Origin: Maricaulis maris MCS10
GTDB lineage: Bacteria > Pseudomonadota > Alphaproteobacteria > Caulobacterales > Maricaulaceae
DNA: 64,000 nt
NCBI RefSeq assembly: GCF_000014745.1
Contig: NC_008347.1
Location: 2,682,001 to 2,746,000, forward strand
Direction of reading: 5' to 3'
Part shown: in pieces, positions 4,878 through 22,093 of the stretch
Layout: the number at the start of each line of letters is the position of its first letter
How positions within the stretch are numbered: the first letter of the stretch is position 1
Translations under genes and position numbers: made by a program
The notes under the pieces: generated by a model
Databases searched by the model: none
What the model was told of the DNA's origin: nothing
Seen by the model: only the letters and a program-made list of their open reading frames with translations

Positions 4878-5090
4878 TGTCGTTTCTCAAGACGTTGTTT
4901 AGTAAGGCGTTGAGCTTTTTGGCTGGCGGTTGCCTGGCCAGAGCATAGTGCGGTCGGTTGCCTGGCCAGAGCATAGTGCGGTCGGTTGGTGTTGTACCAG
5001 TCCAAGTGTCGCACGAGGTCGGCGTTAAGGCTGTTGGATGATCGGTAAGGGGTGGCGTAGGCCCATTCTCTGAGCAGGGTTTGGATGAAG
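4878..5090 (-). mobile_element. IS481-family element, truncated 3' end
   Basis: Begins with the terminal sequence TGTCGTTTCTCAAGAC that also starts the fuller IS481 copy at 19411, and aligns with it base for base apart from scattered changes. On the minus strand it encodes the tail of the transposase (NRPHYALARQP). It is cut at 5090 by the IS3 copy. A 28-bp tandem duplication inside it breaks the frame. Confidence 0.8.
4929..4984. repeat. 28-bp perfect tandem duplication
   Basis: The unit starting GTTGCCTGGCCAGAGCATAG is present twice head-to-tail (4929-4956 and 4957-4984); the homologous place in the IS481 copy near 19460 has it once. It is a recent slippage or recombination duplication inside dead IS sequence. 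Confidence 0.9.
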
Positions 5091-6320
5091 TGACCTGAGC
5101 CCTTTGGCTCCCTCGTTCATTTCGAAAGTCTGAGCCTTTCATAGTCCATGGTTTGAGGTCTGGCGAGCGAGGCGGGAGCGGAGCCCCCGCGTAGCTCGAG
5201 CGACCGGCACGCTGCGGGGGGGGGGGGCGTCAGCCCGCCCAAGGATGAGTGGGGCCGGTGGTGGTTGTAGTCATGCCGCCAACGCGCCAGCACCTTGCGG
5301 GCATGGGCGAGGCTGTCGAACACCTAGTCGGTGAGGCATTCATCGCGCAGTTTTCCATTGAACAGACTCTACGAAGCCGTTCTGCTGCGAGGCGCGATGT
5401 AGTGCCAGGCGATGCCGCTCTGCTTCTGCCATTACAGGGTCGCCCGGCTGGTAAACTCCGTCCCGTTGTCGGACACGATGGTCTCCGGCTTGCCACAGAG
5501 CCGGATGCAGCGATCTAGCTCACGGGCCACGCGGGCGCCTGACAAGGACGTATCCGCCACCAGCGCCAAGCACTCGCGCGTGTAGTCGTCGCTTACATGA
5601 GTATGGGGAGCGCCGCGCCGGGCCGAACACGTCCGCCACAAAGTCCAGGCCCCAGCGCTTGGTCGGCCCGTATGGCACAGGCATCGGCTCTCGTGTACCC
5701 GTGGCCCGCTTACGGCCGCGCCTGCGCTTCACCGCCAAGCCCTCTTCCTTGTAGAGCCGTCGCAGCTTCTTGTGGTTCATGGTGAGGCCCCCACGTTCCA
5801 GTATCAGCCCGATCCGACGATAGCCGACGCACCGCCGCGACCTCACGCAGGCGCGTGCGCATCTCCGCATTGTCGGGCACGGCTTCTCGTCGCACCGCCT
5901 TCGGATCGACGCTGACCGGTCGGCGGGCGCGGCGTTGGGAGATGTCATAGGTCTCAATCACCCCAACCGCCGCGTCCCGCTTCATCCGGGGCATCGTCAG
6001 GGCGTTCTCAGCAGATCTTTCAGGATCGACACATCCAGCATGCTGTCGGCCAGCAGCTTCTTGAGCCGGGCGTTCTCGGTCTCCAGCACCTTCAGCCACC
6101 GGGCATCAGACCCGTCCATCCCGCCGAACTTGGCCTTCCACTTGTAAAACGTCGCCGAGCTGATCCGTGACGTCGGCACACCTCAGCCGTCGACATGTAA
6201 CGCTCCTGTTCCGCCAGGGTCGCGATGATCTGCTCTTCTGAAAATTTACTCTTGTGCATCGTCTGTCTCCGTAACGACAGACTCTCGATTCAAATGCGGG
6301 ACCAAATGGGGCTCAGGTCA
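5091..6320 (-). mobile_element. IS3-family element, copy A (inverted relative to copy B)
   Basis: A 1230-bp element with both ends visible. The left end TGACCTGAGCCC at 5091 is matched as an inverted repeat by GGGGCTCAGGTCA at 6308-6320. The encoded OrfA/OrfB sequences are of the IS407-like branch. It is inserted into an IS481 remnant on the left. I see no clear target duplication (left flank GAAG, right flank AAAG), so it may have arrived or been left by recombination rather than simple transposition. Its sequence repeats at 18200-19409 in the opposite orientation. Confidence 0.85.
5140..6259 (-). pseudogene. IS3 OrfA/OrfB transposase, inactive (copy A)
   Basis: OrfA starts MHKSKFSEEQIIATLAEQE but shifts frame by one base after VCRRHG; the continuation SSATFYKWKAKFGG is in another frame. 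OrfB pieces are recognisable in three frames (SQRRARRPVSVDPKAVRR; KRWGLDFVADVF; DDYTRECLALVADTSLSG; IVSDNGTEFTSRATL) and an in-frame TAA follows the DNGTEF block. A run of 12 G lies near 5216-5227. No programmed frameshift could restore all of these. The same lesions occur in copy B. Confidence 0.85.
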
Positions 6321-6552: not shown

Positions 6553-7437
6553 TTATACCATTCTCGACAAACCCCGGATCCCTATCAGAAGGTCCTGATG
6601 CTTTCTCACCAACGGAGCCATATGGGGCCACCAATCAAGGCCAGATTGCAAAGGCCAAGGATCATCGAGTGCAACCTCGACTTCTAGAAGAGACTGCGGC
6701 TTGGAAAGACACTCGAACAGAATTTCACAATCCCTCTCCAGACCCGTACCGGAAAAGCCATGACATTGGCCGCTTGAACGCCTCAAATCCGGATTAGGCA
6801 CGTGGCAAGCCTGTTCCGGCTGAGCATTTTCAATGGCCGCCCACCGAGAAATCATATCCAAAGTCTCTTCTGGCCGTGTGAGCAAGGCGTCATAGGTAAC
6901 CACGTTTGCATCTGGTTCGAGGGCGCGCACTGATCGGAGCACATCCGTCACGTAACGCCACCAAAGCATACCGCCAACAAACCCCGGGAGGTGGTCCCTC
7001 GAGAACAGCGACCTCGCTACCTCTGACGGCCTTCGTACCACCAAGAGAAGCCGATGAGGTATGTTTAAAGCTTGCAGGAAAGGCAGCCATAACGGCAAAA
7101 AGCGGCTGATACGAGGATCCTTGATAAGTAGAGGCCTGTCTCGCGCCAGCATGGCTGATATCAACTCCTGCCCCTCCGACCAGACCGCCAGCAACTTCGG
7201 ATCAGCCTGCCATTGGTCGTCGAAGGCTCGAGGATCCCACCAGGCACTACCGAGCGCCTGAAACAATCTATCATGCATCTTCGCCAAACTGCGTGACTCG
7301 AAATAGCCCTGCACGTTCCAAACATTGGGCTCCATGAGATCCGTTGGAAAATCATAGCCCAATAGGCCACACATTTGGGCGGCCATCGACGTTCCGCACC
7401 TGTGCATGCCACAAACAATGAGAACGGGCTGGGTCAT
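6553..7437 (-). CDS. Sulfotransferase (island sulfotransferase 1)
   Basis: A 294-residue soluble protein. Near the N-terminus VLIVCGMHRCGTSMAAQ matches the PAPS 5'-phosphosulfate loop of sulfotransferases; LLIKDPRISRFLPLW and VVRRPSEVARSL fit the downstream core and 3'-phosphate-binding region. It would move sulfate from PAPS to a hydroxyl of a glycan; the acceptor is unknown. The longer frame from 7557 overlaps the upstream gene by 74 bases and adds a non-family N-terminus, so I start at ATG 7437, leaving 46 bases between genes. It is the last gene of the minus-strand run 12848 to 6553. IS scraps begin immediately after its stop. Confidence 0.8.
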   Translation of the reverse strand: MTQPVLIVCGMHRCGTSMAAQMCGLLGYDFPTDLMEPNVWNVQGYFESRSLAKMHDRLFQALGSAWWDPRAFDDQWQADPKLLAVWSEGQELISAMLARDRPLLIKDPRISRFLPLWLPFLQALNIPHRLLLVVRRPSEVARSLFSRDHLPGFVGGMLWWRYVTDVLRSVRALEPDANVVTYDALLTRPEETLDMISRWAAIENAQPEQACHVPNPDLRRSSGQCHGFSGTGLERDCEILFECLSKPQSLLEVEVALDDPWPLQSGLDWWPHMAPLVRKHQDLLIGIRGLSRMV

Positions 7438-7483
7438 TCTGAAGCCAATTCCAGGGTACTCAAATGCGCCGAAAGTGCCATAC

Positions 7484-8407
7484 CTATTCCTCAACGAGCG
7501 TGCCACAACTCTGGAGCAGGTCGGCATAAAACGCCAAAAGAAGTTTGAGCTCCTCACTGCTCATCAGGGCATGTGAATCTCCCGTCGGTTTGAAACGCAA
7601 ATCTTCAGGCCAATCATCGTCTGCGTAATGCGCCTGGAATGCAGCTCCAATTTGCGCTTCTAGCCTGGACAGGGGTAATACAGGGTGGCGCTGGGCGACT
7701 TCTCGAATGAGCCCAACATATTTGTGCGGCTGATAACCGCCCCACGATTTAAGAATCACCTCACCGATCATCGCCGACATGAAGTCGATCGACACATTTA
7801 CATAGCGGCTTGGCGGTTCTGGAAATTCATCCTGAGTCTTGGTGACGAGCCGTCCAAATTCTCCCTGGAGATTATGCTTGATATTATCATATCTGATGAC
7901 GTGAACATGTTCTTCGCCGATGGCCTCTTTCCAGGAACGCACAACGTCGTTCGGGAAGAATTCCAGCGTTTTGAGGAAGCCGAAAACATCAAGCTTCCTA
8001 TCGTAAACATATTGATGTTTAATTTGGGATAAAAAGTACGCGCGCTTGTCTCGCAATATTAAATAAGTATTTATTTCGTCAAAGAAGTCACGGGCCACGG
8101 CAACTAACCAGTTTACCTGCTTGCGCGAAAGTGCAGACATGTCCTCGCCAGACATGAGAATCTGCAAATTATCAGGATCCGACGAAGACGCCGCCAATTT
8201 GCTAAAACAATCCCTCAGCCCTTCGACATCGCCTTCTAACGCAAATCGCCGCAACTCGGAGTGCTGAATTGGGTAATTGGGGAATAAATTCACGGGATAA
8301 TCGACACCATACTTTCTCAGCATATAGTCCCTAAAATGCGAAAAATATCGCTGTATTGAAGTACTTCCCGTCTTATGAGAGCCAATATGTAAGTGCAGGC
8401 ACTTCAT
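7484..8407 (-). CDS. Sulfotransferase-like protein (island sulfotransferase 2)
   Basis: A 307-residue protein opening LHIGSHKTGSTSIQRYF, the PAPS-binding loop of a sulfotransferase (GSHKTGST form common in bacterial glycan sulfotransferases). A further conserved-looking segment is TYLILRDKRAYFLSQIKH, where the Arg would contact the 3'-phosphate. It lies 22 bases after the GT4 gene and 46 before sulfotransferase 1, in one run. The gene is notably AT-rich (25 of 60 bases are G or C at 7861-7920), unlike the core genes, which supports transfer. Cytoplasmic; acceptor unknown. Confidence 0.75.
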   Translation of the reverse strand: MKCLHLHIGSHKTGSTSIQRYFSHFRDYMLRKYGVDYPVNLFPNYPIQHSELRRFALEGDVEGLRDCFSKLAASSSDPDNLQILMSGEDMSALSRKQVNWLVAVARDFFDEINTYLILRDKRAYFLSQIKHQYVYDRKLDVFGFLKTLEFFPNDVVRSWKEAIGEEHVHVIRYDNIKHNLQGEFGRLVTKTQDEFPEPPSRYVNVSIDFMSAMIGEVILKSWGGYQPHKYVGLIREVAQRHPVLPLSRLEAQIGAAFQAHYADDDWPEDLRFKPTGDSHALMSSEELKLLLAFYADLLQSCGTLVEE

Positions 8408-8429
8408 AACTTTATCCTATTATTTAGAG

Positions 8430-9569
8430 CTACCCATTCAAAATTTCTCTGAGACCAATATCCAGCTTCTGGGAGATGGGGAAGTCAAAAAAGTTCTGCT
8501 GCGCAAATTTTCTTGCTCGGTCGCCAACTTGCGTTCCGAGTTTTCGATTTCGCAAAAGTTTCAATCCAATTTCAACCGCGTGATTAACATCAGGGTCAGC
8601 CCAATATTGCCCTTCACCAAACGGGTACTCACCTGCTCCAATGTCGACGAGGTCGTAGCGAATGGGAAAACAACTGCGATCTTGAAGCAGATCCACTGCA
8701 CCAGACCAGTTCGTGGCCAAAACCGGCTTTCGAAGCCCCATTGCCTCGCCAATTCCTCGGCCGAATCCTTCGCTGCGATGCAAACTGAGATAGGCGTCAC
8801 AGCAAGCCAACAAGTTCGTCTGACTAAAACGATCCAAATTCTCGTTAATCATAACGATATGATCATTTATACTTTCCGGCAGATATTTGGAAATCGCATC
8901 CTTGGCAACAGCTCCGCCACCTGATTTCATTTTCAGACAGATCTGAAAATCCTCGTACTTTGCCTCGCCTGCCAACTTGTCACAGAACTCTAGAACGGCT
9001 TTCGGGTTTTTTCGGGCGGAAAACGATGTCAAGTCGAAAAATGCCAAGAATACATAGGCGCTCTCGCGGATCCCGAACTGCCGCCGATAGGCGCTCACAG
9101 CCTCATGCCGCTCTACAGACTGCCCCACAATAGGAACTGGTTGGCCCAGTGACTCCTGCAGCGCCTGACTCACGAATGACGAAATACCCAGAACTCCGTC
9201 GAACTGTTTCAATCCCTCGCACCACTCGTCCGGATAACGGGGCAACTCCCAGGCCGGCACGATGATAGTATTTTTTACTTTCGACCGCCAATCAGGATCC
9301 TGCTTTTCCATGGCTCTAAGCGCGGCGGGAACTTCATCACCATTCAAGTGAAAAATCAGTGTCTCGGCTACTGGCTTATCGACTTCCGAGTGCTGCAACT
9401 GACTCACAAGCCGCTCATCCTGGCGCTTCGCATACTTATAGATGTCGTATACCTTGGGCTCTACGCCAATCGATTGGAGAGCGCTGACATGGCTCAGCAA
9501 TTGTTCTGACATGCCTATAGACGCGTGCGGGTGACCGATCAGGCAGATGTCATCGAGAACATTAGACAT
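8430..9569 (-). CDS. GT4-family glycosyltransferase
   Basis: A 379-residue protein of the GT-B fold. The N-terminal HASIGMSEQLL region is the donor/acceptor cleft start; the C-terminal half has LSLHRSEGFGRGIGEAMGLR, whose E-x7-E pattern (EGFGRGIGE) is the GT4 nucleotide-sugar motif, followed by KPVLATNWSGA. No membrane segment is seen. Its start ATG overlaps the end of the GT2-WbsX gene by 8 bases, indicating translational coupling. The C-terminal half resembles that of the 847-residue fusion at 15566, including the (R/K)KNP and SLHRSEGFG blocks, so the two may be paralogues. Donor sugar unknown. Confidence 0.8.
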   Translation of the reverse strand: MSNVLDDICLIGHPHASIGMSEQLLSHVSALQSIGVEPKVYDIYKYAKRQDERLVSQLQHSEVDKPVAETLIFHLNGDEVPAALRAMEKQDPDWRSKVKNTIIVPAWELPRYPDEWCEGLKQFDGVLGISSFVSQALQESLGQPVPIVGQSVERHEAVSAYRRQFGIRESAYVFLAFFDLTSFSARKNPKAVLEFCDKLAGEAKYEDFQICLKMKSGGGAVAKDAISKYLPESINDHIVMINENLDRFSQTNLLACCDAYLSLHRSEGFGRGIGEAMGLRKPVLATNWSGAVDLLQDRSCFPIRYDLVDIGAGEYPFGEGQYWADPDVNHAVEIGLKLLRNRKLGTQVGDRARKFAQQNFFDFPISQKLDIGLREILNG

Positions 9570-12411
9570 TTACGTTAGCCTTTGCGTTGCGGACTGCTTC
9601 TAGCCACGCATGGCCATGGTGGAGATCGGGTTCAAGGTAGGTTCCTTCAGCCCATTCATTCCAAGCATTGATAAAGATAGCCTTCTCGCCTGCGGCGCCC
9701 AAGGCCTTTGCCTTGCGCATCTGGACCTCAAGCAAGGCCTGAAATTTACCCGGACAATCGCCTAAGAAGATATCGCCCCGATCACCGCGCCTAGCCGAAT
9801 TATCCCAACCTGTGAAGGCAGAATGAAAATGCCTCCACGCCGGAGCCCCTCGCCTCACTAAGGCTTCGTAGGCGCCATCAACACTGTATAGCTTGCCGTA
9901 GAAATCCTTAGGAATCACCGGCGGCGTATCTACAGGAAAACCGAGATTGTGGGGCGGAAACTCAATAGACCCATCCAGGCCCAAGCCCGCAGGGTCCTCC
10001 ATTTTGTCCGCGCGCTCCATCGCATCCACAGCCAAGAGAAGTGGTTCTTCTAAACCGAGCCTTCGGACTTCTCTTCGCATAACCTCGAAATGACGTTCAG
10101 GCTCGGGGAAAAGCGAGGGGCGGTAGATCGCTATGACAGGGCGACCATTCATGCGGATATATCGAGGATCAGCCAAGGCGTCCCGATGCGCTCGGATAAA
10201 TTGTTTCGAAGATTCGAGGTCGTGTTCCTGCCCGAGAAGTACAGCTCGATTACGCCCATCCCAGGTTCGGGTCCAAGGTTCGTTAGCCCAACACACACAG
10301 AAATCGAGTGGGATATCCTTGTTCCGAACCAGCATTTCTAGAGGGCGCTCAAGAATTCGTCTTCCCGAGAAATAATAAGAATAGAAAACAAAGCCATCGA
10401 TCCCGTAACGATTCGCTAAACTGGCCTGAGCTCTCAAAGCGTTAGGATCTAGGAGATTATAATAGCCAAGGTCAGTTGGAACCCGTGGCTGCCGATGGTC
10501 TTCAAACAAAGCTTTTGCCCGGCCCACATTGGTCCATTCGGTGAAGCCCCTGCCCCACCATAAGTCGTTCTCCGGTACAGAGTGATATTGAGGCAAATAG
10601 AAGCAATAGGCCTTAACCGCATGGTCATCCGCGACGCGCTCAAAAGTCTGCCTATCTCTGATTGTGTTACGATTCGTAGCAGACAAGGTTTGCTTGTACT
10701 GCGGCGATATCTTGTTTGAGCTCAAGCTCAGGTGGTGCCAGATTAGCGCCTTATGAACATAACGTGCACGACGCCCCTTGACGCGCGTGCGTAGGCCGAG
10801 CTCAACATCCTCACAATATGCCGGCGCCAGCCGGTCATCAAACAATCCGCGTCGGGTGATCAGGTCCTCGGTCCGGAACGCCAAACACACGCCTGATAAA
10901 TAATCTACATCACGGTCAAAATTATAAGCCGGCGCATTCGGGCTATCATTCAATCCGACCATTGTCGTTGAAGCTTCACACCCCAAAGCGCCGCCCGCTT
11001 CCTGAAGAACTCCCGACGGATATAGGACCTTGGGCCCAACAAGACTAACATTCGGGTCCGTCTCCAGCTCCAAGATTAGGTTCTCGAAACAATCACGTTC
11101 TATAATTACATCATTATTGATTAGAATAGTGAACGGAGTTCTGACCTTCTTAATGTTGGAATTGACGTTCCGTAAAAAACCTTTGTTGATTGCATTCCTA
11201 TGATGGTAAAGACCAGCTATTCCAGCAAGTCGACTAAAATCCTCTGTCGACTTGTCATCAAATATATGGACCTCACAATTCTTGGCGCTGCTTGAAACGG
11301 CGATCGAGTATAATAGATCGATCGTTACATCGACTTCATTGTAGACGGGTACCGCGACGGCGATCGTTGGGTTGTCGACACAGAAGCCTTCGAGGTGAAG
11401 ATAGGCCAGTTTCTCGGCCGAACTCAAAGAGGTGTACTCGGCAGACAGGGGGGCCAGCCCCAACTCGCTCCGCCGCACTTCGAGCGCGCTTTTCTCAATT
11501 CGCCGAAATTCATCGCGCGCGCGCTCATAGTTCAACGGAAAGACAGACGGCTCGACCTCAATACGATTGGCTGAAACGCGCTCGGGACCAAGAGGAGCAT
11601 CGGTCGGCAATACAGGAACAAATGCCTCGCGTCCTTCGTAACGTCCGGAGCTCAAAAAGTGCAGAAGCGGAGGTACCTTTTCGGCTCGGACATCCGCGTG
11701 GTTAAGCATGTATTGAACGCCGTCGAATTCTGGCGAGGAAGGAACAAAACTGGGGTCACCGTTAAGGACGAACCAGGATAAGGCAGTTTGCGCGTTTCCG
11801 AATGGCCCGAAGATTCGGTCAATATGTGCTAGATCAAGGTAAGGATTGGGAAAACGGCCCTCGTGCACGCCAGACAGCCAAAAATGCCAATGCGGATTCA
11901 TTTGAGCTTGGGCAACATCGGGCTGCATTTTCAGGTAATATTGCGGATCAAAGTAGGGCGTGGTCGACTGCTGCTTCTCAACCCTGTCCACCAAAACTTT
12001 AAAAATCTGCGCTACAGACTGGCGCCGGTAATCGAGGACCTGTTGGTCAAGCAACCAATCGAGGCGGACCATTGGATGAGGGTCCGCTCCCTGACGACAC
12101 CCTTCAGCACAAAAATGTGCCAAGGCGTTAATTGTGGAGTCGAACTCGATCCCGACCACTTTGGCATAATGCGCTGCATCAAAGACGGGAGAAGGAAGAC
12201 AGGGAGCCATCGCAGACAAGTCTGCCAAGTCATCGAGCTTCACACTGCCCCCAAGTGCAAGTTCGAGATATGCGGGAGAATAAACGCGCCCGAGTATTTC
12301 TAGCGACGGCGCCGCCGGCACGGCACTTGTCTCAGCGGCAAACCAAAGCGGTTGCAATCGTTCGACCAAGACCGAAACCCTACGACCAAATTTCCATCCT
12401 CGCCCCGTCAT
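9562..12411 (-). CDS. GT2 glycosyltransferase-WbsX fusion with NPDV-type repeats
   Basis: A 949-residue multidomain protein. Residues about 76-113, 152-188 and 229-265 are three copies of a module of the type FDxxYYLKMQPDV...HFWLSGVHEGR. Residues about 348-590 are a GT2 domain (TIAVAVPVYNEVDV; metal site INNDV; YCEDVELGLR as the catalytic region). Residues about 598-940 match WbsX, a GH99-like domain of glycan clusters (YCFYLPQYH, GFTEWTNVGRAK, WANEPWTRTWDG, INAWNEWAEGTYLEP). It could both extend a glycan and modify or cleave it, but WbsX chemistry is poorly established. It starts 5 bases after the repeat-protein gene and overlaps the GT4 gene by 8 bases. No signal peptide is visible, so a cytoplasmic role is likely. 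Confidence 0.8.
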   Translation of the reverse strand: MTGRGWKFGRRVSVLVERLQPLWFAAETSAVPAAPSLEILGRVYSPAYLELALGGSVKLDDLADLSAMAPCLPSPVFDAAHYAKVVGIEFDSTINALAHFCAEGCRQGADPHPMVRLDWLLDQQVLDYRRQSVAQIFKVLVDRVEKQQSTTPYFDPQYYLKMQPDVAQAQMNPHWHFWLSGVHEGRFPNPYLDLAHIDRIFGPFGNAQTALSWFVLNGDPSFVPSSPEFDGVQYMLNHADVRAEKVPPLLHFLSSGRYEGREAFVPVLPTDAPLGPERVSANRIEVEPSVFPLNYERARDEFRRIEKSALEVRRSELGLAPLSAEYTSLSSAEKLAYLHLEGFCVDNPTIAVAVPVYNEVDVTIDLLYSIAVSSSAKNCEVHIFDDKSTEDFSRLAGIAGLYHHRNAINKGFLRNVNSNIKKVRTPFTILINNDVIIERDCFENLILELETDPNVSLVGPKVLYPSGVLQEAGGALGCEASTTMVGLNDSPNAPAYNFDRDVDYLSGVCLAFRTEDLITRRGLFDDRLAPAYCEDVELGLRTRVKGRRARYVHKALIWHHLSLSSNKISPQYKQTLSATNRNTIRDRQTFERVADDHAVKAYCFYLPQYHSVPENDLWWGRGFTEWTNVGRAKALFEDHRQPRVPTDLGYYNLLDPNALRAQASLANRYGIDGFVFYSYYFSGRRILERPLEMLVRNKDIPLDFCVCWANEPWTRTWDGRNRAVLLGQEHDLESSKQFIRAHRDALADPRYIRMNGRPVIAIYRPSLFPEPERHFEVMRREVRRLGLEEPLLLAVDAMERADKMEDPAGLGLDGSIEFPPHNLGFPVDTPPVIPKDFYGKLYSVDGAYEALVRRGAPAWRHFHSAFTGWDNSARRGDRGDIFLGDCPGKFQALLEVQMRKAKALGAAGEKAIFINAWNEWAEGTYLEPDLHHGHAWLEAVRNAKANVNV

Positions 12412-12416
12412 GTGAC

Positions 12417-12848
12417 CTATTCTGCGCCTCGAATGTACCGGGCTGCTCGCATTTGCGCATGCGACCCAACACGCCCTTCGGCGTATCCCGTTTCGTGAAA
12501 ATGCGCGCTCACATTGACGATATCGCCACTCTCAAACGCGGCAGCAATATCAGGATTGTGGCTCAAATATTCCTGCTCCTGGCACTTGAGGGAATAGTCT
12601 CGCCCCTCTTGAAACCCTTGCCGAAGGAAATGATCAAGCGCACTAGCGACTCGACCTCGAGAGATTGCGTCACCCACATCAGGATTGCGTTGGACATACT
12701 CGTCCTCGTCAAACTCAGCTGACGTAGCGCACAATATAAACAAATACCGAACTAAGTCGGTCGGAACCTCAACCCTATCCAGCTTTGTTGCAAGAACCGT
12801 GCGGAGCTGCTTGCTGACAGCTCCGTTGCTCGGCGGAAAGTATGTCAT
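12417..12848 (-). CDS. Small protein with two NPDV-type repeats
   Basis: A 143-residue protein of unknown function. Two tandem modules are visible, one around EYVQRNPDV...HFLRQGFQEGRDY and one around EYLSHNPDIAAA...HFHETGYAEGRVG. Both follow a Y-L-x-x-N-P-D-(V/I)...H-F/Y...G...E-G-R pattern that recurs in the N-terminus of the next gene's product. ATG 12848 is chosen because GGGGGAGG lies just upstream; a longer frame from 12941 lacks such a site. No signal peptide, transmembrane segment or catalytic motif is visible. It is the first gene of the minus-strand run ending at 6553 and lies 5 bases before the GT2-WbsX gene. I infer a scaffold or glycan-contacting role; this is not shown. Confidence 0.7.
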   Translation of the reverse strand: MTYFPPSNGAVSKQLRTVLATKLDRVEVPTDLVRYLFILCATSAEFDEDEYVQRNPDVGDAISRGRVASALDHFLRQGFQEGRDYSLKCQEQEYLSHNPDIAAAFESGDIVNVSAHFHETGYAEGRVGSHAQMRAARYIRGAE

Positions 12849-13041
12849 CGCGCCCTGCCTCCCCCTAATTTCGCCAATGCCTGCACTGAAAAGCACCTCG
12901 CTGGATGGCCTAGCAAGACCGTTGTGACTGAGCAAGCGCAATCACTGCGCGAAACCCCGTTGAATTCAGCGACCACCCTTGCCTGAAAAATGCCCGCATC
13001 GCCTGCAAATAATCAGCTAGGCTCCTGAAATAAAGTAGCGA

Positions 13042-13851
13042 TTACGCATAGCCGAGCCGCTTCATTATTGGACCACACTTGTCCTGGATCATTTTGATTT
13101 GTTCGGGCGTCAGATGTTCTTTGAATGAAGTACCGCCAAGCTTCTCAATCGGAGTAACCGGGGCACGGTAGGGCGTTCGCTGAGCCCTTTCCATCTCGAG
13201 AAAATCCCGTATCTCCGGACGACCATCCACGCCCAAAAACGCGACAAGTCTGTCCGCGATACTCAACCCCTTCTTCGAGACGAAATCTTCGTAACGCACG
13301 CTCATGAACCGATCATCTAAGAGCTTGTCGCCAAGTGCGATGGCAGGCTCAGTGTGCCGAAGCCAGTTCTTGATGGTGACATCTATGTCGTCAGAATAAA
13401 TGGGAAGCTTCAGATAGGACGTAATGCAGGACCTAGGGTCCCTATAAACATGTATGAATTTGGCTTCGGGTAAAGCCTCAATCATGAGGTCCAGGCACCC
13501 ATTATTGTTGGCATCTGCATATCCGGGGTTCTTGTCGCCGAATACGGCAACGCGGCGGTAGTAATGCTGCTCCGACAGCACTGGGCACCCAAGGTTCGTC
13601 TTGTTAACTTCCTGTGCGTAGAACTCGCGGATATTGTCGACAAGGGATTTTATAACCGACTTCGCATAAGCATTGCGCAAAGGGTGCTCCGGAAGCATTT
13701 CCGAGGGTTTTCGCAAACGATCTGCAATGTTTGCGACGACATTCCATGCCCGCAACTCATTTGTCACGAAAATTTGAGGGTGTCGATTGATAGCTGTCGT
13801 AAAGAAGGTCGAACCGGATCGCGGCGCACCGATAATGATCAGTGGAATCAT
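13042..13851 (-). CDS. Sulfotransferase (island sulfotransferase 3)
   Basis: A 269-residue protein with the textbook PAPS loop LIIIGAPRSGSTFFTTAIN at the N-terminus, and FIHVYRDPRSCITSYLK in the middle, where Arg and Ser would bind the 3'-phosphate. It belongs to the Sulfotransfer_1/3-like group. The start codon lies one base beyond the stop of the ABC ATPase gene, so permease, ATPase and sulfotransferase form one tight unit. That link suggests that sulfation and export act on the same polymer. No membrane anchor is seen, so sulfation would be cytoplasmic and precede export. The 190 bases after it hold the leader of the repeat-protein gene. Confidence 0.85.
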   Translation of the reverse strand: MIPLIIIGAPRSGSTFFTTAINRHPQIFVTNELRAWNVVANIADRLRKPSEMLPEHPLRNAYAKSVIKSLVDNIREFYAQEVNKTNLGCPVLSEQHYYRRVAVFGDKNPGYADANNNGCLDLMIEALPEAKFIHVYRDPRSCITSYLKLPIYSDDIDVTIKNWLRHTEPAIALGDKLLDDRFMSVRYEDFVSKKGLSIADRLVAFLGVDGRPEIRDFLEMERAQRTPYRAPVTPIEKLGGTSFKEHLTPEQIKMIQDKCGPIMKRLGYA

Positions 13852-13852
13852 C

Positions 13853-14566
13853 TCATACTCCGCCTGCCACTATTTTATCTTCAAGCATCTTTCGATAAGC
13901 GGCAACGACATCATCTATCTCACCAAGCGAGACAATTTTACCCGCGTCGATGATCATGGCCTTGTTACAGATATTACGCATCAGCTGGAGGTTATGCGTT
14001 GCAAGCACCAACAATCCGGATTGTTCAACGACTTCCCGCATTCGCACTCGCGCCTTTCGGATAAATTCCGCATCACCAGCGCCAAGCCACTCATCCATGA
14101 GAAGCACATCGGCGCTTACAGCGGTTGTAATCGCAAACGCCAAGCGCAATGCCATCCCGCTCGAATAGCGAGAGAGTGGCTCGTGTATCCAGTCGCCCAA
14201 TTGCGCGAATTCAATGATAGACGGCGCAAGAGAGCCAGCCTCTTTGAGGCTTAGACCCATGACAGCGCCACGTAGGAAGATGTTCTCCCACCCCGTGGCT
14301 TCTGGAACAAAGCCCAATGAAGCATTGAAAATTGAAGCCACATCCCCAACCACTTCGACCTGGCCCCGCTCCGGCAGATAAATGCCCGCCAAAGTACGCA
14401 AAAGCGTGCTCTTTCCCGACCCGTTACGCCCCAATATGCCGAGCCGATCACCCTGTGTGACCTCAAAACTCACCCCTTGAAGCGCCCAGCTACTATCCCC
14501 CGATTTCGACGAATTGGTGTACCGGATGTGGAGGTCGTCGACTTTGATAAAGGGAGCTACCGACAT
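13853..14566 (-). CDS. Polysaccharide ABC exporter ATPase (Wzt/KpsT-like)
   Basis: A 237-residue ATPase. Walker A is GILGRNGSGKSTLL, the signature region is LSRYSSGMALRLAF, and Walker B is DVLLMDEWLGAGD, the spelling typical of polysaccharide and teichoic-acid exporters (Wzt, KpsT, TagH). It ends soon after the ATPase core and lacks the C-terminal carbohydrate-binding domain of long Wzt proteins, so recognition of a capped chain end is not expected. ATG 14566 is preferred over an upstream in-frame ATG at 14641 that would overlap the permease gene by 73 bases; it lies 2 bases after the permease stop. With the permease it would move an undecaprenyl- or lipid-linked glycan across the inner membrane. 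Confidence 0.88.
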   Translation of the reverse strand: MSVAPFIKVDDLHIRYTNSSKSGDSSWALQGVSFEVTQGDRLGILGRNGSGKSTLLRTLAGIYLPERGQVEVVGDVASIFNASLGFVPEATGWENIFLRGAVMGLSLKEAGSLAPSIIEFAQLGDWIHEPLSRYSSGMALRLAFAITTAVSADVLLMDEWLGAGDAEFIRKARVRMREVVEQSGLLVLATHNLQLMRNICNKAMIIDAGKIVSLGEIDDVVAAYRKMLEDKIVAGGV

Positions 14567-14568
14567 TT

Positions 14569-15390
14569 TTATAACCAATAGGTGATGCGACGGCCATAGG
14601 CCTGCAAGGTGCAAATTGATGCAACCATCATAACACAACAAATACTGGACGCCACGATCCAGTCTGTCGCAGCAGTCGGCTCACCCAATATGGGTTGGCG
14701 AACAATATTCAAGAAATAAGTAAAGGGATTGTAGGTATAAACATAGTAGAGAAAACCCTCCCCGAACCCTGCACTCTCCAAATGATTTGATCTCCGGTCG
14801 GGAATCCAGATGATCGGCGTGAAGAAAAACGAAAGACGCATGACCGAACCCACAATTTCCGTGAAATCCGGCATTCGTGCCGCGACTAGTCCAAAAACGG
14901 TGGTGGTGCAAACGGCCGTCGCAATTACGAGCACAAGTCCCGGTAGAGCCGCGAAGACTTCAAGCGTCGGTCGCCAGCCGAACGCCAAGGAGATAAAGCT
15001 CGCGGTGATGAGGCAGAGCAGCAGCAGCACGCCATTTCTCACGACATGCACCAAAACAAATGCTGTTCTTGGCGCACGCATCTGCAACAACATCGACCGG
15101 TTGGCGACCAACACACTACAACCAGCTACCACACTGGTACTGATAAAGTTCCAGACCGCGAAACCGAACGCGACATAAGGGACGTGTTGCGATGCCGGAA
15201 CACCGAGAAGACTCGATAGAAGAACACCAATCCCAATAGCGGATGTCGCGAAACCGAGCACAATCCAAAGGCTACCAATGAGTGGTCGGCGATACTCTAT
15301 CTGCAGCCGCTTCACACCTAAATACGCCCAGCGGTCCAGACCACTCAGTGCACTCTTGAAGTCCGCCAACGCGTACATGGGGGATCCCAT
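14569..15390 (-). CDS. Polysaccharide ABC exporter permease (Wzm/KpsM-like)
   Basis: A 273-residue ABC-2 type membrane protein with about six hydrophobic segments (for example IVLGFATSAIGIGVLLSSLL and NGVLLLLCLITASFISLAF), a cytoplasmic N-terminus containing RLQIEYRRPLIGSLW, and the conserved FFFTPIIW segment before the last loop. This layout fits the permease of capsule, O-antigen or teichoic-acid exporters. It is the first gene of the permease-ATPase-sulfotransferase unit and is divergent from the large GT fusion at 15566; the 175 bases between starts must carry both promoters, though I cannot pick clear boxes. Confidence 0.88.
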   Translation of the reverse strand: MGSPMYALADFKSALSGLDRWAYLGVKRLQIEYRRPLIGSLWIVLGFATSAIGIGVLLSSLLGVPASQHVPYVAFGFAVWNFISTSVVAGCSVLVANRSMLLQMRAPRTAFVLVHVVRNGVLLLLCLITASFISLAFGWRPTLEVFAALPGLVLVIATAVCTTTVFGLVAARMPDFTEIVGSVMRLSFFFTPIIWIPDRRSNHLESAGFGEGFLYYVYTYNPFTYFLNIVRQPILGEPTAATDWIVASSICCVMMVASICTLQAYGRRITYWL

Positions 15391-15565
15391 CCTCTCTATA
15401 TCCAGCGCCCGTGTTACAGGCGGTCTTTGATGGTGGCAAGAAGAGACACCCAGAATGCCGCAGTGCGAACGCTTTCAATTACATGACCGCGTGTTAGAAG
15501 TCCTTTTTTCAAATCCTGACGCCCCGAAGGAACCAGGAATGTGGCAGGACAAGCTCGGAGTGAAT

Positions 15566-18109
15566 ATGGAAAATCTAGTCTATTTCACAATTTGTTCGCG
15601 CAATTACATGGCGTATGCCCTAACGCTCGGCAGATCGCTTGTCCAGGCGAATCCTAAAGCGAAATTTGTCATCGGTATGGCAGATGAATGGCCTTCCGGA
15701 CAGTATGTCGGCGACGTCGAGTTTGAGGTCATACCAGCTTCGAATATCGGCCTTCCGACCTTTGACGACATGATTACGCGCTACTCCGTGATGGAGCTCA
15801 ACACGGCGATCAAGCCCAGAATGATACGATATCTCATGGAGGACCGAGGCTTTGAGCGCGTCGTTTATCTTGACCCGGATATTTTTGTCATTTCGCCCTT
15901 GATTGAACTCAGCACTCGATTGGACGACGGAGTCGAATGCGTGCTGACACCCCACGCCCTCGCACCCTTAGATGATGGCGGCGATCCGAACGATGTCCGC
16001 CTCTTAAGGACAGGGGTCTACAACCTGGGCTTCGTTGCGATGCGCCGCTCAATCAATGTCTCAAATTTTCTCAAATGGTGGGAAACGCAGTTAGAGACCA
16101 AATGTGTCGTCGATCTTGAAAACGGTCTGTTTGTCGACCAGAAATTCATGGATCTCGCTCCTTGCTACATTGAAAATACCCACATACTGCGGCACGCGGG
16201 TTACAATGTCGCCTATTGGAATCTGACACACCGTCACGTTAAAGCGTCGAACCGATCCTACGAAGTCAATGAGCAACCGCTCAGATTTGTCCATTTCAGC
16301 GGTGTCGCCCCCAAAGATGCCAGCGTCTTTTCCAAGCACCAGAACCGCTTCACACCCGAAAACATCGGGGATCTCAAGCCGATCTTCGATAATTATCTCA
16401 AGCGCTTGAAGGACAATGGCAACGAGGCATGGAGCGCAATATCTTATGCCTTTGACCAACGCGACGGCATTACGCTCGACTCGCCCTTGCGTCGGGTCTA
16501 CGCGGAGCAGCATCCGCTCCCTCGGAGAAACACGACCTTATCAGGCAAAGAACTGATCAGACTCGCAAATCAGCCCGCGCGCCTTGAGGGCCCAGCGTTC
16601 CCAACTCGATATGTCCACGCCCTTTGGAAAAGTCGCGAGGACCTTCGAAAGGCCTTCGACGTTGATACAGCAAATGGGCGAACCCGTCTGGCCGAATGGG
16701 TACTTTCAAGCGGAATTCGAGAGGTTGGGATTTCTGACGCCCTACTTCAACCCGCTCGGGACGCCCTTCAATTTGCCAATCAATTGCAGCCGACAGCTGA
16801 GGCGCCAGGACTTAAACACAGGATTGCTCGGCGACTCATCATGATCGCTTCGCATCTTCGCTTTGTCGCCCAACGATTACCAAATGGCCTGACCAGACCG
16901 GTCAAGCGTTGGCTCCGAGCTGCCATTTCAACGTCTCCCTATGCTTCGACTATTAGCCAGAAGCCAAAGCAGAAAATCCGACGAGAGGACGATGGTGTCG
17001 CCATCTATGGCAATTTTGGAACTGAAAGCGGTGTCGGAGAAGGCGCGAGACAAGCGCACACCGCACTCCAGCAGGCCGGTTATACCGCTGAGGCGCATTC
17101 CATACTGGCCTTGGGAGGGTTTGCAAACAATGTCGAATATGACAATGCTCAAGTGGCTGGAGCGAGTGGGAAACCAGTTAGACTTTTTCACATCAATGCA
17201 GACCAGACGCCGCACATCCTCGACGCACTCGCGTTCGATGAGCATCTCGCAGGTAGTTATAAAGTTGCATACTGGGCCTGGGAATTGTCCAAGTTCCCTG
17301 CCGTATGGACACCCGCGGCAGAACGCTTGGATGAAATCTGGACTCCTAGCGAGTTCACGGCCAAAGCTATTCGGGATGCTGTAGACTGCCCAGTATACGT
17401 GGTCCCTCACCCCGTCCAGGTGACATTGGACCAATCTCCAGATGCGCGCTCCCGGATGCGCGACAAACTTGGATTTGCAGATGACGAATTTGTAGTGCTC
17501 GTCTGTTTTGACTTCAATTCCTACTTGGCCCGCAAGAACCCTGAAGCCGCCCTTTCCGCTTTTCAGAAAGCGCGGCGAGTCAATGATAAGCTTCGCCTTG
17601 TGCTCAAGGTCCACGGCAACTCCCCGTCCCCTCAGCAGCGCCGGCAATTCTTGCAACAGGCTGAAGCCATTGAAGGCGTGATTATTATTGACGGCGTAAT
17701 GAGCAGGGAGGAAATCGATGAGCTTCAGTGGGCCAGTGACACATTCATGTCCCTTCACCGATCAGAGGGATTTGGACTAAATATTCTTGAATGCATGGCC
17801 AAGGGGAAGCCGGTTATCGCTACTGACTATTCCGGCTCAATGGATTTCCTCGACAGTAGGGTTGGCATACCCATTCCTTACACGCTTATAGAAGTCGGGA
17901 AACAAGACTACCCCTTCCCTGAAGGTCAGGTGTGGGCTGATGCAGATGTGTCCGCTGCTGCTGAGGCGCTTGTAACTTTGAGCAACGATATATTGTTTTC
18001 GGAACGATTGGGAAAAGCCGCCCAGAGTCTTGCACGCACGCAATACTCACCCAAAATCGTCGGCCGAATAATGATTGAAAGGTTACAGGCTATTTCGCAG
18101 CAGACCTAA
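15566..18109 (+). CDS. GT8-like/GT4 bifunctional glycosyltransferase
   Basis: An 847-residue fusion. The N-terminal part (about 1-310) is a GT-A-type domain: LVYFTICSRNYMAYALTLG, then VVYLDPDIFVIS with the DPD metal site near residues 103-105, and HFSGVAPKD later. A middle stretch of about 150 residues is poorly conserved and basic. The C-terminal part (about 475-845) is GT-B/GT4: GVGEGARQAH, FDFNSYLARKNPEAAL, and SLHRSEGFGLNILECMAKGK carrying the E-x7-E nucleotide-sugar motif. ATG 15566 has GGAG five bases upstream; a longer frame starts at 15455 but adds an unrelated N-terminus. It is the only plus-strand gene of the island. An IS481 end begins two bases after its stop. Two sequential sugar transfers are inferred. 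Confidence 0.8.
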   Translation: MENLVYFTICSRNYMAYALTLGRSLVQANPKAKFVIGMADEWPSGQYVGDVEFEVIPASNIGLPTFDDMITRYSVMELNTAIKPRMIRYLMEDRGFERVVYLDPDIFVISPLIELSTRLDDGVECVLTPHALAPLDDGGDPNDVRLLRTGVYNLGFVAMRRSINVSNFLKWWETQLETKCVVDLENGLFVDQKFMDLAPCYIENTHILRHAGYNVAYWNLTHRHVKASNRSYEVNEQPLRFVHFSGVAPKDASVFSKHQNRFTPENIGDLKPIFDNYLKRLKDNGNEAWSAISYAFDQRDGITLDSPLRRVYAEQHPLPRRNTTLSGKELIRLANQPARLEGPAFPTRYVHALWKSREDLRKAFDVDTANGRTRLAEWVLSSGIREVGISDALLQPARDALQFANQLQPTAEAPGLKHRIARRLIMIASHLRFVAQRLPNGLTRPVKRWLRAAISTSPYASTISQKPKQKIRREDDGVAIYGNFGTESGVGEGARQAHTALQQAGYTAEAHSILALGGFANNVEYDNAQVAGASGKPVRLFHINADQTPHILDALAFDEHLAGSYKVAYWAWELSKFPAVWTPAAERLDEIWTPSEFTAKAIRDAVDCPVYVVPHPVQVTLDQSPDARSRMRDKLGFADDEFVVLVCFDFNSYLARKNPEAALSAFQKARRVNDKLRLVLKVHGNSPSPQQRRQFLQQAEAIEGVIIIDGVMSREEIDELQWASDTFMSLHRSEGFGLNILECMAKGKPVIATDYSGSMDFLDSRVGIPIPYTLIEVGKQDYPFPEGQVWADADVSAAAEALVTLSNDILFSERLGKAAQSLARTQYSPKIVGRIMIERLQAISQQT

Positions 18110-18110
18110 C

Positions 18111-18199
18111 TTTCATTTCTCAAGACATTGTTCAGCAGGATGCTGAGCTGCTTGGCTGGCGGCTGCCTGTCGAGGCCATAATGCGGGCGCGCTGTGTTG
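18111..18199 (-). mobile_element. IS481-family remnant, diverged
   Basis: Starting TTTCATTTCTCAAGACATTG, this 89-base piece aligns with the left ends at 4878 and 19411 but with many more changes, so it comes from a different, older IS481 relative. It is cut by IS3 copy B at 18200. Confidence 0.65.
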
Positions 18200-19409
18200 T
18201 GACCTGAGCCCCATTTGGTCCCGCATTTGAATCGAGAGTCTGTCGTTACGGAGACAGACGATGCACAAGAGTAAATTTTCAGAAGAGCAGATCATCGCGA
18301 CCCTGGCGGAACAGGAGCGTTACATGTCGACGGCTGAGGTGTGCCGACGTCACGGATCAGCTCGGCGACGTTTTACAAGTGGAAGGCCAAGTTCGGCGGG
18401 ATGGACGGGTCTGATGCCCGGTGGCTGAAGGTGCTGGAGACCGAGAACGCCCGGCTCAAGAAGCTGCTGGCCGACAGCATGCTGGATGTGTCGATCCTGA
18501 AAGATCTGCTGAGAACGCCCTGACGATGCCCCGGATGAAGCGGGACGCGGCGGTTGGGGTGATTGAGACCTATGACATCTCCCAACGCCGCGCCCGCCGA
18601 CCGGTCAGCGTCGATCCGAAGGCGGTGCGACGAGAAGCCGTGCCCGACAATGCGGAGATGCGCACGCGCCTGCGTGAGGTCGCGGCGGTGCGTCGGCTAT
18701 CGTCGGATCGGGCTGATACTGGAACGTGGGGGCCTCACCATGAACCACAAGAAGCTGCGACGGCTCTACAAGGAAGAGGGCTTGGCGGTGAAGCGCAGGC
18801 GCGGCCGTAAGCGGGCCACGGGTACACGAGAGCCGATGCCTGTGCCATACGGGCCGACCAAGCGCTGGGGCCTGGACTTTGTGGCGGACGTGTTCGGCCC
18901 GGCGCGGCGCTCCCCATACTCATGTAAGCGACGACTACACGCGCGAGTGCTTGGCGCTGGTGGCGGATACGTCCTTGTCAGGCGCCCGCGTGGCCCGTGA
19001 GCTAGATCGCTGCATCCGGCTCTGTGGCAAGCCGGAGACCATCGTGTCCGACAACGGGACGGAGTTTACCAGCCGGGCGACCCTGTAATGGCAGAAGCAG
19101 AGCGGCATCGCCTGGCACTACATCGCGCCTCGCAGCAGAACGGCTTCGTAGAGTCTGTTCAATGGAAAACTGCGCGATGAATGCCTCACCGACTAGGTGT
19201 TCGACAGCCTCGCCCATGCCCGCAAGGTGCTGGCGCGTTGGCGGCATGACTACAACCACCACCGGCCCCACTCATCCTTGGGCGGGCTGACGCCCCCCCC
19301 CCCCCGCAGCGTGCCGGTCGCTCGAGCTACGCGGGGGCTCCGCTCCCGCCTCGCTCGCCAGACCTCAAACCATGGACTATGAAAGGCTCAGACTTTCGAA
19401 ATGAACGAG
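18200..19409 (+). mobile_element. IS3-family element, copy B (right end lost)
   Basis: Same sequence as copy A read on the other strand: position 18200 corresponds to 6320 and the match stays in register to the homopolymer near 19293, where copy B has 13 C and copy A 12 G. It then matches again up to 19409. The last about 21 bases, including the terminal repeat, are missing and IS481 begins at 19411. Without one end it cannot transpose as a unit. Confidence 0.85.
18261..19382 (+). pseudogene. IS3 OrfA/OrfB transposase, inactive (copy B)
   Basis: It carries the same lesions as copy A: the OrfA frameshift near 18355 after VCRRHG, at least two OrfB frame changes, and a TAA after the DNGTEF block at 19086-19088. 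The longer C run changes the frame of the last OrfB segment (after SSLGGLTPPPP) compared with copy A. It is not functional. Confidence 0.85.
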
Positions 19410-20490: not shown

Positions 20491-22011
20491 TCAAAGTTTT
20501 TGATCGAACTCACCCACTTCCGGGCAACCGGCCAACACCGTTTCGATTGCCTGGAACACGGACACCACTTCCTCATGGCTATTTGGGCTCTCAACCACAA
20601 CCACAAGGTTGGGCGTGTTCGAACTGGCCCGTACCAGACCCCAAGCGCCGCCCTCCAGGGAGAAACGGACGCCGTTGACCGTGTTCACATCAGTGATCGC
20701 ACGCCCGGCGACAGCCTCGCCATTGGTCTTGCGTGCCTGGAAGCGTTCGACAATCTTCTCAACCACGCCATATTTTTCTTCGTCCGCGCAGGCCGGTGAC
20801 ATGGTCGGCGACCCGTAGCTCATCGGCAGGTCGCGGCGAAGGTCGGCCATGGTCTTGTCAGGATTACGCTCCAGCATTTGCAACACGGCCCGTGCGGCAA
20901 CCAGACCGTCATCATAGCCACGGCCGATCGGCGGCTGCAGGAAGAAATGGCCCGACTTCTCGAAGCCGGCCAGCGCGCCCAGCTCCTTCGAGCGCCGCTT
21001 GATGTAAGAATGCCCGGTCTTGTAATAGTCGGTTTTGCAGCCGTGCTCGGCCAGGACTGGGTCGATTGCAAACAGGCCGGTGGACTTCACGTCGACGACA
21101 AAACTGGCACCGGGATGGAGTGGCGCCAGATCGCGGGCGAGCATCAGCCCGATCTTGTCGGCGAAGATTTCCTCGCCCTCATTGTCGATCACACCGCACC
21201 GGTCACCATCGCCATCAAAGCCAAGGCCGACGTCGGCGCCGTGCTCGAGCACGGCATCGCGCATGGCGTGCAGCATCTTCATGTCTTCAGGATTGGGATT
21301 GTAGCGCGGGAAGGTGTGGTCAAGTTCACAATCCATCTCGACGACCTCGACGCCCATCGCCCTGAGCGCCTGCGGGGCAAAGGCCCCCGCCGTGCCATTG
21401 CCGCAGGCAGCGACGACCTTCAGCGGACGCTTGATCGCAACGTCTTTGGCGACATCATCGAGATAACGTTCGGCAACGCCAGCCTGACGGACATAGCCAC
21501 CACCGGAGCGGGTCTTCGCCGATCCGGACAGGACGATTTCCTTGAGCCGGCTCATCTCGTCCGGACCGAAGGTCAAGGGACGGTTGGCCCCCATCTTGAC
21601 GCCGGTCCAGCCATTCGAGTTGTGGCTCGCCGTGACCATCGCCACGCAGGGAATGTCGAGATCAAACTGTGCGTAGTAGGCGGTGGGCGAGAGCGCCAGG
21701 CCGATATCATGCACTTCGATGCCCGCCGACATCAATCCGACCTCCAGCGCCTGTTTCACGCTCAGCGAATAGCTTCGGAAGTCATGGCCGACGACGATCT
21801 TCGGCGCCACGCCGAGTTCATGGATCAGCGTGCCCAGACCGGCCCCAAGCGCCTGCACGCCGTACAGGTTGAGATCGGGAGCCTTATCGGAACCGGGATG
21901 GCCGAACCACCAGCGCGCATCATATTCCCTAAAGCCGGTCGGCTTGATCAGGGCCTCGGTCTCGAACTCCCAGGAATTGGGCTTCAGGCTGGCATGGGGC
22001 TTGGTCGTCAT
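20491..22011 (-). CDS. Phosphomannomutase/phosphoglucomutase
   Basis: A 506-residue alpha-D-phosphohexomutase of the ManB/AlgC type. The phosphoserine loop MVTASHNSNGWTGVKMG is near residue 127-140, the metal loop GFDGDGDRCG near 270, and the sugar-specificity loop GFEKSGHFF further on. It interconverts hexose 1- and 6-phosphates, feeding GDP-mannose and UDP-glucose synthesis. ATG 22011 is chosen because family homology begins there; the frame open to 22137 overlaps ugd. It lies 82 bases after ugd on the same strand and is probably co-transcribed. Which sugar dominates cannot be read from the sequence, so no symbol is given. The IS481 element begins 50 bases past its stop. Confidence 0.88.
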   Translation of the reverse strand: MTTKPHASLKPNSWEFETEALIKPTGFREYDARWWFGHPGSDKAPDLNLYGVQALGAGLGTLIHELGVAPKIVVGHDFRSYSLSVKQALEVGLMSAGIEVHDIGLALSPTAYYAQFDLDIPCVAMVTASHNSNGWTGVKMGANRPLTFGPDEMSRLKEIVLSGSAKTRSGGGYVRQAGVAERYLDDVAKDVAIKRPLKVVAACGNGTAGAFAPQALRAMGVEVVEMDCELDHTFPRYNPNPEDMKMLHAMRDAVLEHGADVGLGFDGDGDRCGVIDNEGEEIFADKIGLMLARDLAPLHPGASFVVDVKSTGLFAIDPVLAEHGCKTDYYKTGHSYIKRRSKELGALAGFEKSGHFFLQPPIGRGYDDGLVAARAVLQMLERNPDKTMADLRRDLPMSYGSPTMSPACADEEKYGVVEKIVERFQARKTNGEAVAGRAITDVNTVNGVRFSLEGGAWGLVRASSNTPNLVVVVESPNSHEEVVSVFQAIETVLAGCPEVGEFDQKL

Positions 22012-22093
22012 GGGAACACCGCTTCTTGTTTCACAGGCAGGGTGGATCTCGCGACGCGCACAGCCCTTCGGGCTGTACCCGGCGGGCTGTTGA

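Follow-up and report, generated by a model that had tools for sequence, protein, structure and literature searches.

A predicted sulfated, O-antigen-type polysaccharide locus with a Wzm/Wzt exporter in Maricaulis maris MCS10

Introduction

What kind of surface glycan is made by a locus in which an ABC exporter and several glycosyltransferases (GTs) stand beside three candidate sulfotransferases, and how does that glycan leave the cell? This question is raised by positions 6553–18109 of a 64,000-nucleotide stretch of Maricaulis maris MCS10 DNA (hereafter the window), which corresponds to positions 2682001–2746000 of a single 3,368,780-base contig. A first-pass annotation of the window had listed an exporter, three sulfotransferases (here ST1, ST2 and ST3), a GT4 enzyme, two fusion proteins and a repeat protein, and had proposed that they make a sulfated, ABC-exported surface glycan. 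All of these open reading frames (ORFs) are present, the GT8-like part of one fusion being plausible only, and a sulfated, ABC-exported glycan still appears to be the best reading of them. That reading was strengthened by the linkage of exporter, ST1 and adenosine 5′-phosphosulfate (APS) kinase, and by nearby genes for synthesis of the sulfate donor 3′-phosphoadenosine 5′-phosphosulfate (PAPS). We put the probability at roughly two in three that this is a serotype-variable, O-antigen-type locus making a sulfated polysaccharide. The genomic evidence gives good support to sulfation, which in chemical terms is still a prediction.

Results

Scans of the window proteins against Pfam and NCBIfam at their curated cut-offs, together with the ORFs themselves, showed an ABC-2 permease and an ATPase consisting of a nucleotide-binding domain, encoded together with glycosyltransferases (Table 1). 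Along the minus strand from wzm, the order is wzt, ST3, a small repeat protein, a repeat-GT2-WbsX fusion, GT4, ST2 and ST1, and the successive spacings are 2, 1, 100 and 5 nt, an overlap of 8 nt, and 22 and 46 nt, given starts for wzt (14566) and ST1 (7437) that are our own reading. Because these genes are so closely spaced, with a largest gap of 100 nt, it is plausible that the exporter and all three sulfotransferases form one transcription unit. The first-pass annotation had assigned one sulfotransferase to a tight unit with the exporter; this holds for ST3, which lies 1 nt from wzt, but ST1 and ST2 belong to the same-strand run as well.

The three sulfotransferases differ in how readily they are recognized. 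ST3 is a clear Sulfotransfer_3 protein, its profile matched PDB entry 4gox (E 6e-10), and the P-loop-like and R-x7-S columns were nearly or fully invariant in its three-row alignment. Members of the ST1 family were found in 37 of the 137 genomes of the taxonomic family, our own included (46 match rows). Conserved in a 21-row alignment of this family were a P-loop-like GxHRxGxS, a K-x-P-R, and R and S residues eight positions from each other, which we take to be the motifs by which PAPS enzymes bind the 5′ and 3′ phosphates. An AlphaFold model of ST1, for which relatives from 23 of the 40 viral-contig loci served as input, had a core (41–240) at a predicted local distance difference test (pLDDT) score of about 90, and in a fold search all seven PDB matches at E ≤ 0.001 were sulfotransferases, with modest TM-scores of 0.36–0.41 by query length. 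In both its PAPS-binding motifs and its predicted fold, ST1 thus resembles a PAPS-dependent sulfotransferase. For ST2, an 11-row alignment kept G-K-G and R throughout and S nearly always, and the family profile matched PDB 3rnl, labelled a sulfotransferase, at E 1.9e-9; by motif and by similarity to this solved protein, ST2 is likewise a candidate PAPS-dependent enzyme. Profile-profile comparison linked ST1 with ST3 (E 1.5e-5, probability 79%) and ST2 with ST1 (E 5.6e-6, probability 86%). Two rows were left out of alignment A3 as duplicates of another stretch of the same genome.

A sulfate donor could be supplied from close by. Within 20 kb left of the window come cysNC and cysD, with cysQ on the opposite strand, followed by genes for a DegT aminotransferase, glmS, a GT4 enzyme and rmlD, rmlB, rmlC and rmlA. 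CysD, CysQ, RmlB and RmlA scored over NCBIfam cut-offs and the CysNC and GlmS-type domains over Pfam cut-offs, and RmlC and RmlD are a reading by homology to ORFs of other loci. APS kinase has one match in the genome, 25 kb from ST1 and 33 kb from wzm, and the stretch between the PAPS genes and ST1 is interrupted by insertion sequences (ISs) and other genes. The region combines PAPS-synthesis genes and sulfotransferases in a polysaccharide cluster, which is the hallmark of such loci as worded in the available part of PMC11641403. The genome's second PF01507 match, CysH (408757–409263; L145:1390–2790), carries CC and CxxC cysteine pairs that align with those of the Pseudomonas aeruginosa APS reductase 2goy and do not occur in the PAPS reductase 2o8v. 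CysH may therefore use APS, and if it does, cysteine synthesis needs no PAPS and the APS kinase would serve the sulfotransferases. From their ORF text, the genes flanking cysH read like a sulfite reductase and a cysteine synthase, and assimilation is thus encoded apart from the PAPS genes.

Comparison with relatives tied the sulfotransferase, the exporter and the PAPS supply together. A wzm match (E ≤ 1e-20) was present in 70 of the 137 genomes of the taxonomic family. Of the 32 genomes that have both genes, our own included, 21 had ST1 no more than 20 kb from wzm, against 0.6 expected by random placement on 3 Mb; counting strong ST1 hits alone gave 14 of 19. Nine genera show this proximity when our own genus and weaker hits are counted. 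Among the matches listed, APS kinase was within 30 kb of wzm in 18/65 genomes, our own included (1.5 expected), and within 50 kb in 16/19 genomes with ST1 near wzm vs. 7/46 without. These counts leave out five wzm genomes without a usable APS-kinase match, as well as any APS-kinase row with an E-value above 3.7e-24, so that G018, G102 and G122 do not count as carriers. In one congener (G075), a single strand encodes an ST1 giant (see below), wzm, wzt, a Sulfotransfer_3 protein (92.8 bits), glmS, DegT, cysD and cysNC, the last broken by the contig end; a complete second APS kinase lies on another contig of that genome.

The first-pass annotation had also suggested looking for the same gene order in relatives, and part of it was indeed recovered: GT8-like/GT4, wzm, wzt and ST3 occur together, in the same order and directions, in a Glycocaulis metagenome-assembled genome (MAG; L014/L065). 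The four genes are also together in Aquisalinus flavus (L064), there with a wzm of only 28% identity; different exporters thus seem to accompany the sulfotransferase and the fusion enzyme. In both organisms the GT8-like/GT4 protein is 41–42% identical over its whole length. These were the two close loci (A. flavus, 47%; Glycocaulis MAG, 42%) among the 19 found by an ST3 scan. The other 17, from Bacteroidetes, are distant (22–28%), and for none of their flank ORFs (some flanks are short) was wzm or wzt one of the top two window hits at E ≤ 1e-4. Within the taxonomic family, 78 of 137 genomes gave some ST3 match, of which, besides ST3 itself, one was close (G013, E 7.6e-72), the next being 2.9e-10. 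With so few close relatives, ST3 was rejected as a widespread marker of such loci. ST2 was found in 9 of the 200 genomes of the order, our own included. An ST2-family protein in another genus (L013:8457–9542; G080) adjoins wzm, and the genome-wide ST2 search listed G080 without a match.

Some ST1 proteins are very large: 15 of the 46 ST1 match rows fell in frames longer than 1,000 aa. In all five of these giants that we scanned (1,826–2,089 aa), GT4 and GT2 domains follow the ST1 domain, and one has WbsX too. These domains are the parts that stand as separate genes in the window, in which GT4 domains were found in both GT4 proteins. The GT8-like part of the GT8-like/GT4 protein had no Pfam match and reached a PDB GT8 structure at E = 0.29 only; its GT8-like identity is plausible.

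Also shared is a 40-residue repeat, with the consensus FDAAWYLEQNPDVAAAGLNPLAHYLSSGAKEGRSPHPLFD, present in four of the five scanned giants and in two further ST1 proteins. We counted it in 16 ORF rows, equal to 13 distinct proteins (three genomes were covered twice), six of them with an ST1 domain; the carriers lie in the window (12417–12941 and 9562–12411) and in L028, L064, L013, L015, L016, L017, L031, L134 and L137. In the window proteins the repeat is covered by no Pfam or NCBIfam family, and the small repeat protein as a whole had no match in either.

We then considered what type of exporter the locus encodes. The best NCBIfam models were those of the galactan Wzm/Wzt (NF050109/NF050108), but their curated cut-offs were not reached (183.5/380 and 212.3/400 bits), and we did not file the pair as a galactan exporter. 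As the first-pass annotation had stated, the ATPase lacks a chain-end-binding domain: no C-terminal chain-end- or carbohydrate-binding domain was among its Pfam matches, and the protein stops shortly past the nucleotide-binding domain. This is ordinary for a galactan-type Wzt, because the NF050108 model has only 244 positions. A short Wzt was dropped as a marker of sulfated loci, short and longer ATPases being found in loci both with and without ST1. The KpsC/KpsS family (PF05159) had no match in the genome, and the same profile matched Escherichia coli and Bacillus subtilis among 14 control genomes; a Kps capsule was rejected on this ground. No outer membrane polysaccharide export (OPX) or polysaccharide co-polymerase (PCP) protein was matched among the ten window and six left-flank proteins scanned, the rest of the region and the genome not having been searched for these families, KpsD and Wza included. 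From the exporter type and the missing KpsC/KpsS match, a lipopolysaccharide (LPS) O-chain seems more likely than a capsule.

The alternative that survives best, although we consider it unlikely, is a sulfated capsule or exopolysaccharide that would pass the outer membrane by way of an OPX/PCP channel without being joined to lipid A-core. A short ATPase would suit it, since KpsT also lacks a chain-end-binding domain. Sulfated ABC-exported polymers in the literature are capsules, as far as the available parts of PMC11641403 and PMC11766843 describe them. Against a capsule stand the absence of a PF05159 match, the O-antigen galactan models as best, though sub-threshold, exporter matches, and the OPX/PCP result for the proteins scanned.

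Several observations weigh against an O-antigen-type locus for a sulfated chain. One is that PF04932, with two matches in the genome, spans both O-antigen ligases and polymerases. ST1 alone remained under the Pfam threshold (13.8 bits, E 0.07), its profile reached PDB sulfotransferases at E 0.0054 at best, and nucleotide kinases, which share the P-loop fold, entered its fold search from rank 9 (E 0.0066). Of the five giants, one was over the Pfam cut-off (G098, 32.3 vs. 27 bits) and four were under it, and the weak ST1 hits of 230–270 aa may be a different subfamily. ST2 had no Pfam sulfotransferase match, its structure model was uninformative (pLDDT 44.8), and its profile similarity to ST3 was negligible (E 0.043). 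For CysH, the overall score placed the PAPS-reductase-labelled entries 7rge, 7lhr and 2o8v ahead of 2goy, and 7lhr also has both cysteine pairs. As for linkage, fragmented assemblies introduce bias, and among the genomes with at most 10 contigs (n = 20 listed) the association of ST1 with APS kinase was 6/8 vs. 4/12 (P 0.085). In G098, G083, G093 and G046 the APS kinase is on the exporter's contig but at least 0.2 Mb away. The linkage P values are descriptive only, because the genomes are related and the counts are not independent.

Some of these points would also fit a second alternative, which we regard as quite improbable: that the P-loop proteins are sulfotransferase-like but inactive or active on other acceptors, with the PAPS genes placed nearby through ancestral gene order or to serve other sulfotransferases. 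PAPS does have further users, as PF13469 hits nine genomic frames, among them ST3 (ten rows); the ST1 P-loop reads GMHRCGTS where the family has GMHRSGTS (Cys for Ser); ST2 has no curated family; and linkage is not independent between related genomes. However, the family alignments show the nucleotide-binding residues kept in ST1, ST2 and ST3, the ST1 domain is fused to glycosyltransferases in the five giants scanned, and ST1 stays within 20 kb of the exporter across the nine genera counted above.

The first-pass annotation had treated the genes as an IS-bracketed island, a unit that did not survive comparison with congeners. The two IS copies, which we presume from the HTH_21 domain to belong to the IS3 family, are near-identical and inverted (arms of 1,108 and 116 nt at 100%), but the right copy is truncated and no target duplication was seen on inspection of the ends, so a composite transposon was rejected. 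An IS481-type element (LZ_Tnp_IS481) occupies two frames at 19420–20423, and a related fragment lies at 4920–5090 (91% over 150 nt); the IS pair thus sits in older IS debris. The GC content at third codon positions (GC3) is 0.53–0.59 in the island genes vs. 0.67–0.74 in four neighbors, a drop that agrees with horizontal exchange. We fetched eight of nine congener exporter loci (not G079) and in six of the eight found, near the exporter, a mutase 83–90% identical to that at 20491–22137; in G065 and G075 the stretch retrieved does not contain this gene. In contrast, wzm was only about 28–43% identical in the nine congeners with a match (18 searched). Because the mutase is conserved while wzm has diverged, the antigen locus was probably replaced in place, and we read it as a resident, variable O-antigen-type locus, allelic to the congener exporter loci at the same chromosomal site; the plausibly associated PAPS, glmS and rml genes lie outside the ISs. 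That a recently acquired, IS-flanked composite element brought in a foreign glycan cassette is very improbable, for although the paired IS copies, the lower GC3 and the lack of a wzm allele closer than 43% among the 18 congeners would suit it, the congener loci beside the mutase, the state of the IS ends and a wzm query with one match only in its own genome (E ≤ 0.001) speak against it.

Precursor genes had been placed next door to the locus, and ugd is indeed there. The supposed galU is a phosphoglucomutase/phosphomannomutase, and the supposed uronate epimerase is a short-chain dehydrogenase/reductase with a putative substrate only. To the left, a low-GC ORF of 416 aa (3626–4876, plus strand) sits immediately outside the left IS; it had no Pfam or NCBIfam family over cut-off and no match among the comparison loci searched, and is perhaps a piece of the same glycan region split off by ISs. 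At 1383–3045, the ORF text of short frames suggests a metallopeptidase (HELGH) and a fragment resembling HlyD, which look like the remains of a disrupted gene set.

Table 1. Features of the locus and its surroundings, in window positions.
Feature	Positions	Strand	Basis or remark
IS element, left copy, ends TGACCTGAGCCC inverted	5091..6320	-	Inverted repeat with 18197-19409; HTH_21 match
ST1, sulfotransferase-like (GMHRCGTS; R-x7-S)	6553..7437	-	Listed ORF start 7557; M41 start is our reading
ST2, sulfotransferase-like (GSHKTGST; R-x7-S)	7484..8407	-	Family profile vs. PDB
GT4 glycosyltransferase	8430..9569	-	PF00534 29.5 bits, cut-off 26.4
NPDV-type repeats (3 found)-GT2-WbsX fusion	9562..12411	-	Pfam; WbsX 388.8 bits, and GT2
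Small protein, two repeats of the 40-residue type of the fusion protein	12417..12941	-	Repeat search
ST3, Sulfotransfer_3 family	13042..13851	-	PF13469 94.4 bits, cut-off 27
Wzt-like ATPase	13853..14566	-	PF00005; NF050108 212.3 bits; listed ORF start 14641
Wzm-like ABC-2 permease	14569..15390	-	PF01061 28.6 bits, cut-off 26.9; NF050109 183.5 bits
GT8-like/GT4 two-domain glycosyltransferase, divergent from wzm	15455..18109	+	PF00534
IS element, right copy, outer ~21 bp missing	18200..19409	+	Repeat search, end inspection
Phosphoglucomutase/phosphomannomutase, conserved anchor of the locus	20491..22137	-	Family matches
UDP-glucose dehydrogenase-type (ugd), conserved anchor	22094..23404	-	TIGR03026 472.6 bits, over cut-off

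Discussion

Taken as a serotype-variable, O-antigen-type locus for a sulfated polysaccharide, the region suggests the following pathway, in which we infer the sulfation itself, the order of the steps, the ligation to LPS and the sugar identities. CysD and CysNC would make PAPS, with CysQ clearing 3′-phosphoadenosine 5′-phosphate (PAP), and the Rml enzymes, Ugd and the mutase would supply nucleotide sugars. The chain, attached to a lipid carrier, would be assembled in the cytoplasm by GT4, GT2-WbsX and GT8-like/GT4 and be sulfated there by ST1–ST3, a placement that follows from PAPS being cytoplasmic. Wzm/Wzt would then export the finished, already sulfated chain, which would most likely be ligated to lipid A-core or else be kept as a capsule. 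A bolder idea, which we offer as speculation and think doubtful, is that sulfation is part of chain assembly rather than decoration. ST1, within or beside the chain-building enzymes, would add sulfate during growth, and the sulfated chain would be recognized by, or set the length for, a Wzm/Wzt without a binding domain, replacing the terminal cap read by the binding domain of Wzt.

The locus suggests that sulfated O-antigen-type glycans recur in this marine alphaproteobacterial family, with Wzm/Wzt in place of Kps machinery. It also makes three sulfotransferase families available for testing, of which Pfam detects two weakly or not at all, along with natural fusions of sulfotransferases to glycosyltransferases. 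The strain is culturable.

Literature searches, which mostly do not cover subscription journals, found nothing relevant on sulfated polysaccharides of Maricaulis and, by title and opening of the abstract, no locus joining a sulfotransferase, Wzm and Wzt. Among known systems, the rhizobial NodPQ-NodH-NodIJ works alike, with PAPS synthesis, a sulfotransferase and an ABC-2 exporter for one sulfated glycan; its product is a lipo-oligosaccharide signal, not a polymer, and we claim no membership for the Maricaulis locus. The galactan Wzm/Wzt (NF050109/NF050108) supplied the best named exporter models and shares the ATPase without a chain-end-binding domain, but the scores are about half of the cut-offs, and to our knowledge that system has no sulfotransferases.

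For Vibrio sp. KMM 8419 and Cobetia marina KMM 1449, the available parts of PMC11641403 and PMC11766843 describe sulfated capsules of chemically determined structure whose gene clusters combine ABC export with PAPS genes; sulfated O-polysaccharides from Cobetia are cited in their reference lists as well. On these sources, both sulfated polymers exported by an ABC transporter and sulfated O-chains are already known. The first-pass annotation had known of no sulfated-capsule locus with this exact gene set; loci combining an ABC exporter with PAPS genes are in fact published, although those described in the same two sources carry Kps proteins. Like the Maricaulis region, that of Vibrio sp. KMM 8419 unites an ABC exporter, cysC/cysN/cysD, sulfotransferases and deoxythymidine diphosphate (dTDP)-rhamnose genes, and its authors note mobile elements and a GC content differing from the chromosome, a further likeness. 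It exports via kpsDME and kpsT, in contrast to the O-antigen-type Wzm/Wzt without a KpsC/KpsS match found here; set against it, the GT2-WbsX and GT8-like/GT4 fusions are Maricaulis features, and its sulfated structure is proven whereas the Maricaulis polymer is a prediction from genes (Vibrio data from the available part of PMC11641403). C. marina KMM 1449 likewise has a cysN/cysC fusion, cysD and cysQ beside an ABC exporter, a sulfotransferase and, as another likeness, several P-loop NTPases among its glycan genes; it differs in its kpsETMD with kpsSC and wcb lipid operon, there being no kpsSC family match in Maricaulis (PMC11766843, available part). The Maricaulis locus differs from these cases in its O-antigen-type exporter without a KpsC/KpsS match and, in relatives, in the fusion of one sulfotransferase family with glycosyltransferases.

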